DNA from: Oscillospiraceae bacterium
GTDB lineage: Bacteria; Bacillota; Clostridia; Oscillospirales; Acutalibacteraceae
DNA: 61,905 nt
Assembly (NCBI GenBank): GCA_009777055.1
Contig: WRMQ01000002.1
Coordinates: forward strand, 1-61,905
Reading direction: 5' to 3'
Part shown: in pieces, positions 11,931 to 37,285 of the stretch
Numbering within the stretch: position 1 is the stretch's first letter
How the letters are laid out: the number at the start of each line of letters is the position of its first letter
Translations under genes and position numbers: made by a program
The notes under the pieces: model-generated
The model's input: only the letters and a program-made list of their open reading frames with translations
What the model was told of the DNA's origin: nothing
Database searches by the model: none

Positions 11931-12063
11931 CCGCTTCCGGCGCGCGGAAGCGGCGAATTATTTCCTTATCTTCCGGCAAAACCGCAGGATGAAGCACCTT
12001 GCATATCGCATGCAGGTTGCCGGGCATCACAGAGCCTGATCTCTCCGCCACTCTTAATAAGGG
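11931..12063 (-). ncRNA. SAM-I (S-box) riboswitch with downstream terminator (hairpin 11931-11953) preceding metK
   Basis: Minus-strand CTTATTAAGAGTGGCGGAGAGATCAGGCTCTGTGATGCCCGGCAACCTGC...AAGGTGCTTCATCCTGC...AAGATAAGG; then CCGCTTCCG...CGGAAGCGG plus T-rich run. Confidence 0.92.
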
Positions 12064-19320: not shown

Positions 19321-19377
19321 GCGTGAATTTGCGAAACCGGTCTTGACAAACGGCGGAACGAGTGCTATAATATGAAC

Positions 19378-19487
19378 TAAGGAAAGCGGCGCTGCCGAGC
19401 TTCGGTTGCTGTCTCTATTCCTCAATTGAGTAAAAGAGGTAACCGCCCGTGTTTGTTAGGCACGAGGGCGGTTACTTCTTTATTTGG
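19378..19487 (+). ncRNA. Candidate antisense RNA of a type I toxin-antitoxin-like locus (locus 1)
   Basis: TTGACA (19343-19348) -17- TATAAT (19366-19371); terminates at hairpin 19439-19475 (gtaaccgccc...gggcggttac) followed by ttcttta; convergent to 19480-19596. Confidence 0.5.
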
Positions 19488-19596
19488 AACGCCATATGCT
19501 TTTTATCCAGTGCAGGGCAGCCGAAGCAATTGTGACGGCCCACGTGGGATCTATCATCACAGCCTGCAGAATATCCGCAATGTATGTTACCATCAT
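19480..19596 (-). CDS. Candidate small hydrophobic peptide (MMVTYIADILQAVMIDPTWAVTIASAALHWIKSIWRSK)
   Basis: 38 codons, upstream GGAAAGGAG, minus-strand promoter TTGACT-17-TAAAAT near 19690-19720, ends just before the shared bidirectional hairpin. Confidence 0.45.
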   Translation of the reverse strand: MMVTYIADILQAVMIDPTWAVTIASAALHWIKSIWRSK

Positions 19597-19757
19597 AAAG
19601 GCACCATCTCCTTTCCCCCGGAATGCGCCAAGGCATTTGCCGTGAGGAATAGAGATATGCGCAACCGCCGCCCAGCAGCGCCATGCTTATTTTATACCAT
19701 TATTCGTCAAAAGTCAACTGGTTTCGAAAATATGTTCGCTCACGAAAGCGTTTTTTC

Positions 19758-21218: not shown

Positions 21219-21289
21219 GTGAATACCCTCCTTTTCTTATTTCAAAAGCCCCCCCTTGACATTCCACTTCCCTTGCGGTATAATGGAGG

Positions 21290-21400
21290 CGGTCAAGGGG
21301 GCGAAGCGCTGCCGAAAACGGCTAGCCTCCTATGATGAAATTTGCCAGGCTACTAGCCGCCCACAGCTTGCAGGTGATGGGGCGGCTAGTCCTTTTTATT
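21290..21400 (+). ncRNA. Candidate antisense RNA of a type I toxin-antitoxin-like locus (locus 2)
   Basis: TTGACA (21256-21261) -17- TATAAT (21279-21284); terminator hairpin 21352-21390 followed by cctttttatt. Confidence 0.55.
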
Positions 21401-21466
21401 GAGTTCACGTACGTAGAGCATCATCGCCAGATAGCAAAAGGCCATCGCCATGAGAATTTCTACCAT
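21386..21466 (-). CDS. Candidate small hydrophobic type I toxin-like peptide (MVEILMAMAFCYLAMMLYVRELNKKD)
   Basis: 26 codons, SD GGGGTGAGAG, promoter TTGCAT-17-TATAAT on minus strand (21542-21570), stop inside shared terminator stem. Confidence 0.55.
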   Translation of the reverse strand: MVEILMAMAFCYLAMMLYVRELNKKD

Positions 21467-21578
21467 GTACTCTCACCCCTTTCGGGGAGACGTCACCGCT
21501 TCCGTGCAAGCGCAGCGCCGCGGCCCTCGCGGGCCAAAATTATTATAGCAGACGCGATAACAAAATGCAACACGTTTT

Positions 21579-23097: not shown

Positions 23098-23301
23098 ATG
23101 GAAAAGGCTTCGATCACAGAATTATTCCCAGGCGCTTCCGATCATGCCTTGGAAGAAAAACGTATTTTGAGAGCGTTTGAAGAATCCGATAAAGAAGCCG
23201 CTGCAGGAAAGTTTATGGACGCTGATGAAGTTTTCGCCAGGATATTCGAAAGAATAGACCGGTTTGAGGCAGAATTGGAAAGGCGAGAAAATGCAGTATA
23301 A
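23098..23301 (+). CDS. Antitoxin-like small protein (module 1)
   Basis: Small acidic ORF overlapping the downstream ParE/RelE-like toxin; promoter TTGATT-17-TATAAT in a duplicated 46-bp block. Confidence 0.65.
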   Translation: MEKASITELFPGASDHALEEKRILRAFEESDKEAAAGKFMDADEVFARIFERIDRFEAELERRENAV

Positions 23302-23605
23302 GCTCAAGATTCTGCCTTCTTTTGAACGGGAATTGGTTGAAATAACATCCTACATCAGCGAAACTTTATATGCGCCGAAAGCTTCCCGAAAAACAGCCGA
23401 ATCTATTCTCAAAAAAATCAACCGCATAAAGTCTTCACCAACTCTGGGGAAAAAATATATTAGCCTGGAGGGCGAAGATAAAGGATTCCGTTATTGTACT
23501 ATAAAGAATTACGCGATTTTTTACATAGTAAACGAAAGCAACCACACAATTGAAATTCGCCACGTGTTTTACGCCCGCCGTGATTTCAATTCGCTCATCC
23601 AATAG
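23291..23605 (+). CDS. RelE/ParE family toxin (module 1)
   Basis: YKLKILPSFERELVEITSYISETLYAP...RYCTIKNYAIFYIVNE...IEIRHVFYARRDFNSLIQ. Confidence 0.82.
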   Translation: MQYKLKILPSFERELVEITSYISETLYAPKASRKTAESILKKINRIKSSPTLGKKYISLEGEDKGFRYCTIKNYAIFYIVNESNHTIEIRHVFYARRDFNSLIQ

Positions 23606-23676: not shown

Positions 23677-23892
23677 ATGGAAAAAACTTATTCAGCAGCA
23701 GAATTAATACCCGACGCTTATGACCGGGTCTTCGAAGCTGTGGCGGAACTGCGGCTTCTGCGCTTGTTGGAAGAATCTGACAAAGAAATAGAGGCGGGCG
23801 TTTTTTATACACAGGAGGAAATCTTTGAGGAGATGGAAAAAATGATAGACGGATTTGAATTGGAGATGGGGCTGTTAAAGGATGCGGTATGA
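23677..23892 (+). CDS. Antitoxin-like small protein (module 2)
   Basis: Paralogue of 23098-23301 (EESDKE...); overlaps toxin 2. Confidence 0.65.
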   Translation: MEKTYSAAELIPDAYDRVFEAVAELRLLRLLEESDKEIEAGVFYTQEEIFEEMEKMIDGFELEMGLLKDAV

Positions 23893-24193
23893 GCTTCATT
23901 TTATGCCCGCTTATAAGCAAGAACTCACAGAAATCCTCAGATATATAGCCTATGAGCTGTATGCCCCTGAAGCGGCCAGGAGACTAAACAGACAAATTGA
24001 TCAGAAGCTTAACCAACTGCAACGATCACCTGCACTCGGCAAAATACATATTTCTGCTTCAGGACAGACGGATTACCGCCGTCTTCTTGTGAAAAATTAC
24101 ACTATATTTTATAAGGTTGATGAAGACGCGCACACGATAAATCTTTGCCGCGTACTCTACGCCCGCCGTGATTTCAATTCGCTCATCCAATAG
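23882..24193 (+). CDS. RelE/ParE family toxin (module 2)
   Basis: YELHFMPAYKQELTEILRYIAYELYAPEAARRL...RLLVKNYTIFYKVDE...RVLYARRDFNSLIQ. Confidence 0.82.
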   Translation: MRYELHFMPAYKQELTEILRYIAYELYAPEAARRLNRQIDQKLNQLQRSPALGKIHISASGQTDYRRLLVKNYTIFYKVDEDAHTINLCRVLYARRDFNSLIQ

Positions 24194-37029: not shown

Positions 37030-37285
37030 CAGTGGCGCGAAGCGACTGCTCACCGCGGGTGCCGCCCTGCCGGGAACGGCGATGAATGACCTGCCTGTGG
37101 CAGGTGGGTGGCCTCCCGCCGGTTTCACGCTCCCTTCGTCCAACAAGAAAACAGGTCTTGCCGGGAGGTCTGCAATCCGCCGCCGGAGATCGGCCCCCTA
37201 ATGATCGGTCGTTGGGCCATCAAAGCCGTAGGTGTCGCGCAGGGCAGCCACCTGCAGTGAGCAATCGCTTCGCGCGCTTTGGCAT
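37030..37285 (-). ncRNA. ssrS: Probable 6S RNA
   Basis: About 40-bp imperfect closing stem between the two ends (GCGCGAAGCGATTGCTCAC / GTGAGCAGTCGCTTCGCGC and GCCCTGC/GCAGGGC) with internal ACCTACGGC, ACCTCCCG...TTGTTGGAC...GCGTGAAACCGG..GGGAGGCCACCCACCT, which I recognise as 6S-like; not verified by covariance search. Confidence 0.6.

Follow-up and report, generated by a model that had tools for sequence, protein, structure and literature searches.

The stretch between 21256 and 21570 raises the question of whether two facing promoters, a short hydrophobic reading frame and a stem common to both strands constitute a type I toxin-antitoxin (TA) module and, if so, to which family such a module belongs. 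The window, by which we mean the whole 61,905-nt stretch of DNA that was analysed, holds this region, here called locus 2, and a second region of similar layout, locus 1, with a genuine GH5 gene between the two. A preliminary description read locus 2 as a convergent type I TA-like module that encodes a one-helix peptide with a lysine tail, and in this respect it was right: the module is real and is conserved in copies in the same genome. The two promoters (the one on the minus strand being read from 21570 to 21542) and the 26-codon reading frame (21466-21386) named in that description are all present, and the stop codon lies within the stem as stated. We consider locus 2 to be quite probably a type I TA-like module of a new family, acting by the mechanism proposed below. 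Its features are as follows.

21256-21284, plus strand: promoter of RNA II (the antitoxin RNA), TTGACA-17-TATAAT, a 12/12 match to the consensus
21291-21396, plus strand: predicted RNA II, about 106 nt and without a conserved ORF, placed from the promoter and terminator positions, its start inferred
21296-21330, plus strand: 5′ region of RNA II, a same-sense homologue of the toxin mRNA leader, with a C-rich CCTCC motif at its end
21352-21390, both strands: shared terminator stem T1, CTAGCCGCCC...GGGCGGCTAG (arms at 21353-21389), which holds the toxin stop codon TAG
21386-21466, minus strand: ORF of the toxin-like peptide MVEILMAMAFCYLAMMLYVRELNKKD, 26 codons
21472-21489, minus strand: hairpin CUCCCC-GAAA-GGGGUGAG with the Shine-Dalgarno (SD) sequence of the toxin mRNA, taken from folds
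21486-21527, minus strand: toxin mRNA leader segment, a same-sense homologue of RNA II
21542-21570, minus strand: promoter of RNA I (the toxin mRNA), TTGCAT-17-TATAAT, a 9/12 match and weaker than the antitoxin promoter
21251-21301, both strands: 10-bp inverted repeat CCCCCTTGAC...GTCAAGGGGG (T2), which flanks the antitoxin promoter and is followed by a T-rich tail

Taken alone, the layout is weak evidence. Four sites in the window match TTGACA-17-TATAAT at 12/12 positions, and 13 sites have at most one mismatch, against 0.06 expected from shuffles; good promoter matches are therefore common here, and a single one is unremarkable. It is the recurrence of the layout in copies that makes locus 2 more than a chance arrangement. 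In the analysed genome, we read by eye six full modules of its family, family A (on contigs C2, which carries locus 2, C18, C77, C73, C26 and C49), a full module being one with a toxin promoter, a leader, an SD, an ORF, a stem and an opposing antitoxin promoter. The module on C18 shares 77% DNA identity with locus 2 over 315 bp (E=6e-59) and encodes an identical peptide, and a profile search retrieved related peptides on C77, C73, C26, C49, C23 and C98, the last of these in a copy that runs off the contig edge. The antitoxin promoter has a 10-12/12 match and a 17-nt spacer in each full copy examined, and the toxin promoter has a 9-11/12 match in the copies with a complete scanned stretch. As read from the DNA, all full copies contain a predicted overlapping antisense RNA gene with its own promoter and terminator, which is one of the traits by which type I TA loci are recognized.

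According to the preliminary description, locus 2 has the same design as locus 1, and the position of the two loci on either side of the GH5 gene suggested an addiction-linked or duplicated cassette. The layout is indeed the same, but the peptides are unrelated. The module at locus 1 (19343-19717) is composed as follows.

19343-19371, plus strand: RNA II promoter
19440-19474: stem
19596-19480, minus strand: peptide MMVTYIADILQAVMIDPTWAVTIASAALHWIKSIWRSK
19717-19689, minus strand: toxin promoter

Contig C18, and not locus 1, holds the nearest copy of locus 2, which argues against a duplication around the GH5 gene. An addiction linked to GH5 is not borne out either, because loci 1 and 2 differ in peptide family and because the other copies adjoin unrelated genes (by eye, MocA-like/glycosyltransferase, GtrA/deacetylase, galE/phosphatase-like and ABC/SDR-like); the link to GH5 therefore appears to be incidental. 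Two tandem genes for ParE-family type II TA toxins (PF05016) lie approximately 2 kb from locus 2 on the plus strand (23264-23605 and 23882-24193; E=5.5e-11 and 2e-14), and elsewhere the window contains a SAM riboswitch upstream of a metK-like gene (11963-12063) and a 6S RNA (37055-37253).

The locus 1 peptide, which no family model matched, has a Pro in the helix and Trp residues before a basic tail, loosely like Fst/Ldr, without the Gly of PXXXG. Relatives occur on C6 and C17 and in genome G150; loci of this kind, locus 1 included, are here called family B. For some pairs, the RNA II of family A and that of family B are related (C77 versus C17, p<0.002); the two peptide families thus appear to share one RNA chassis. 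On C17 (26400-27420, L094), genes that by eye are argD-like and argB-like enclose a family B module together with a toxin-less copy.

The reading frame of family A is maintained as a coding sequence. The ORFs of C2 and C18 have six coding differences, of which six are synonymous and 0 nonsynonymous (p=4e-5), and those of C77 and C73 have 14 differences, 11 of them synonymous (p=4e-6). Both comparisons point to purifying selection on the peptide; a selected gene for a small hydrophobic peptide is a further trait of type I TA loci. These results bear on whether the module is simply a dispersed non-coding repeat with promoter-like ends and an incidental ORF, as the many copies, the truncated copies and the intergenic sites might suggest. 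Such a repeat is scarcely credible, because it is contradicted by the coding selection in both pairs and by a strong SD, which is present at a fixed spacing in all copies.

The peptides of the analysed genome and of G150 are 25-26 residues long, each with a single hydrophobic stretch (mean hydropathy over 17 residues, 2.1 to 2.7), and their ends are mostly Lys-rich. The P/D/S/TXXXG motif and the Trp before the charged tail are absent from the family A peptides of both genomes. No informative match to Pfam, NCBIfam or PHROG was found for the family A peptides scanned, although such models easily miss short peptides. The membership in holin-like or TxpA-type toxins that had been suggested for locus 2 accordingly reduces to a resemblance of kind, and the peptide family is apparently new.

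The peptide is a putative toxin. Regulators are common among small membrane peptides, and purifying selection would fit a toxin or a regulator equally. That the peptide is a non-toxic small membrane regulator under the control of an antisense RNA is nevertheless unlikely, because approximately ten copies are dispersed beside unrelated genes and many are degraded, mostly toxin-less with intact antitoxin promoters, a pattern that a TA system explains better. In families A and B together, six degraded copies lack the toxin (C18:781-986, C77:2807-3000, C24:3943, C87:1345, C16:17977 and C17:26440), and all six keep the stem and a 12/12 antitoxin promoter; the copies on C18 and C77 stand in tandem behind a full copy, and those on C24, C87, C16 and C17 belong to family B. 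One degraded copy, C23:22666-22743 (L028, L036), has lost its antitoxin half, but its toxin ORF, SD and promoter are intact; C23 and C26 have the same leader, so that protection of C23 in trans is conceivable. The 6:1 excess of toxin-less remnants (binomial p=0.06) is in the direction expected of a TA system and is suggestive only, being limited by small numbers and by the fragmentation of the assembly into 151 contigs. For orz of E. coli, a type I system, antitoxin-only copies have been described (PMC11264685). Taken as a whole, the module is likely to work as a TA system.

Searches for the module beyond locus 2 found it again in the same genome and in congeners. Five of the 14 same-genus genomes carry it, namely the analysed genome, G1128, G1131 (four), G1132 and G1134. 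G1134 matches G150 in contigs and positions and is evidently the same MAG. The congeners contribute nine more full or edge copies, with the same layout wherever it was read, and all 6/6 congener loci read are full modules with a 12/12 antitoxin promoter. Genome sets at the level of the family (150), the order (396) and the class (392), which overlap in part, gave no convincing relative outside the analysed genome, and the one genome of the GTDB set with the module is an Oscillospiraceae MAG (Po218_bin118). Therefore, the family looks genus-restricted within this sampling. Weak peptide matches in other genera (L009, L016, L017, L049 and L050) showed no module on reading. Phages, plasmids and viral contigs were searched without a match, and an origin from a phage or plasmid was rejected.

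The toxin mRNA has a conserved 5′ structure. A C-rich segment of the leader pairs with the SD in the folds of all leaders, and the SD is paired throughout the family. Between the C-rich segment and the SD, directly before the latter, a small hairpin occurs in nine family A leaders. Its arms are paired at 47/47 positions, with five pair types at one position and compensatory changes between loci, and when arms were swapped between loci the paired fraction was 66%. Because the arms were chosen from folds, the value of 47/47 is partly expected, and the compensatory changes between loci carry the weight. The pairs were counted on hand-defined arms, because MAFFT puts the short helix in the wrong place when it aligns the leader hairpins.

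A closed SD recalls par_pAD1 and the chromosomal par loci (Fst/Ldr), and these systems share much else with locus 2. The convergent promoters, the small antitoxin RNA, the shared stem in the 3′ overlap, the SD closed by a 5′ stem-loop and the one-helix peptide with a charged tail are common to both, as is the general layout (PMC7472228). If locus 2 were a true par/Fst member, its RNA II would pair with the toxin start region through DRa/DRb, because the par signature includes these direct repeats as well as the P/D/S/TXXXG motif (PMC7472228). As controls, three real par/Fst loci from enterococcal plasmids were put through the same test as family A. Each par locus gave 5′-5′ complementarity scores of 44-51 (p<0.0005 each) and no same-sense homology, whereas the antisense scores of family A were at chance in 8/8 loci (p 0.15-1.0). 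The method therefore detects par repeats, and the locus 2 family is without them. Candidate par-like DRa/DRb complementarity was also rejected by duplex energy, longest contiguous pairing and local alignment, in none of which the family exceeded shuffles. Moreover, unlike Fst/Ldr, the locus 2 peptide lacks the P/D/S/TXXXG-type motif and the Trp and was matched by no family model, and a search of Rfam yielded no match to par-type or other families beyond weak chance matches. Membership in par/Fst is thus very unlikely; the module works somewhat like par yet is no member of it.

Instead of par-like repeats, RNA II carries a same-sense copy of the leader. Its 5′ part resembles the toxin leader in the same sense, with the C-rich anti-SD included. 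Summed same-sense scores were far above chance (z=15.6 in family B and z=6.4 in family A of the analysed genome), whereas summed complementarity in the same two families was not (z=-1.2 and -0.2). Because the same-sense idea arose from the first loci, it was retested on six congener loci found later, which gave z=6.5 for same-sense similarity and z=-1.6 for complementarity; these loci are homologues, so that the value of 6.5 is replication short of full independence. A plain same-sense match in family B is that of ACGCTGCCGGAGCGGCGGTTGTACCAGTCCCTGAATCCTC with ACGCTGCCGGAACACGGCTGCCGTCTCTAATCCTC on C17. Locus 2, taken on its own, shows a weak match (p=0.07).

With the C-rich anti-SD in its copied part, RNA II could do in trans what the leader does in cis, namely close the toxin SD. 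Pairing between the ribosome-binding site (RBS) and RNA II, summed for 12 loci, reached -207 kcal/mol, versus -174 kcal/mol with shuffled RNA II (sd 10), an excess mostly due to family B and C26; at C2, that is, locus 2, the pairing showed no excess over chance (p=0.96). At locus 2, it is the 3′ overlap that provides firm complementarity. The idea that each RNA II is specific for its own RBS was rejected, as pairing energies show no cognate preference. For S. aureus, a report describes binding of the toxin RBS in trans by the non-overlapping 5′ part of SprA2AS (PMC6393315). The present module resembles SprA2/SprA2AS in having related copies within one genome, but here RBS pairing is a prediction at the level of the family only.

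The 3′ ends of the two RNAs bear on a different mode of silencing. The preliminary description called T1 a bidirectional terminator. The stem is common to both genes, as in par-type convergent terminators, but a strong U-tract follows it on the plus strand only: at locus 2, 8/12 positions are T on the plus (antitoxin) strand and 2/12 on the toxin strand, and most copies have a weak tract on the toxin strand (2-7 T of 12). The plus-strand tract is the complement of the Lys-Lys-Asp codons, and the codons of the peptide tail thus double as the antitoxin terminator. Given its poor U-tract, RNA I may read through T1 and continue to the second inverted repeat, T2. The 3′ overlap of RNA I and RNA II would be approximately 47 nt if RNA I ends at T1 and approximately 106 nt if it reads through. 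The CCCCCTTGAC...GTCAAGGGGG repeat recurs in other family A copies, in some of which the second arm is less exact, and the sequence behind it is rich in T (5-10 of 16 positions). The repeat may act as a second terminator of the toxin strand or, otherwise, as an operator.

The toxins of TxpA/RatA, BsrG/SR4 and yonT/SR6 are small hydrophobic peptides with a Lys-rich end, as in the present module. If locus 2 were of the TxpA/RatA or BsrG type, RNA I would run through T1 to T2, RNA II would be wholly antisense to its 3′ end, silencing would proceed through cleavage of the duplex by RNase III, and the leader homology would be a relic of the origin of the locus. The weak toxin-strand U-tract after T1 in most copies, the T-rich sequence after T2, and the short hydrophobic stretch and Lys-rich end of the peptide are consistent with such a system. 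However, diverged loci have kept the same-sense similarity, and conservation extends to the 5′ structures; a relic would need neither. We therefore regard this reading as possible but rather doubtful. The module is like TxpA/RatA, BsrG/SR4 and yonT/SR6 of B. subtilis (yonT/SR6: PMC5848175) in its convergent, 3′-overlapping antisense RNA; unlike them, it has a short overlap unless RNA I reads through, dispersed chromosomal copies and same-sense leader homology, and the family models do not match it. The C. difficile pairs CD2517.1-RCd8, CD2907.1-RCd9 and CD0956.2-RCd10 have toxins of 50-53 aa and are associated with CRISPR arrays or prophages (PMC6563280), in contrast to peptides of 25-26 aa and no CRISPR or prophage association beside the copies read here.

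The mechanism that we propose for locus 2 combines these elements. RNA I, from the minus-strand gene, would encode a membrane peptide of 26 residues with a single helix, probably toxic on overproduction, and the C-rich anti-SD of its own leader would keep the toxin SD closed. RNA II (~106 nt) would be made from the plus-strand gene by the stronger promoter. Its complementarity to the 3′ end of RNA I would be perfect, over ~47 nt at the stem or over the whole of RNA II in the case of read-through, and pairing with that end would silence the toxin mRNA. In addition, the 5′ part of RNA II, as a same-sense leader with an anti-SD, may cover the toxin SD in trans. We suggest, tentatively, that RNA II is a free-standing, ORF-less copy of the inhibitory leader (5′ hairpin, anti-SD and terminator) which arose by inverted duplication, closes the SD in trans and serves as the chassis of at least two unrelated peptides. 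That this mimicry of the leader would be the main mechanism is a possibility to which we give limited credence; if the reading is true, RNA II without its 3′ overlap should still repress.

If the peptide is toxic, the module represents a family of type I TA systems whose toxins are very short. The family occupies approximately ten loci or more in a single gut-clostridial genome and is confined, within the sampling, to one genus. The same-sense relation between the antitoxin RNA and the toxin leader is the opposite of the par design, and it suggests that a type I antitoxin may be born by inverted duplication of the toxin promoter and leader.
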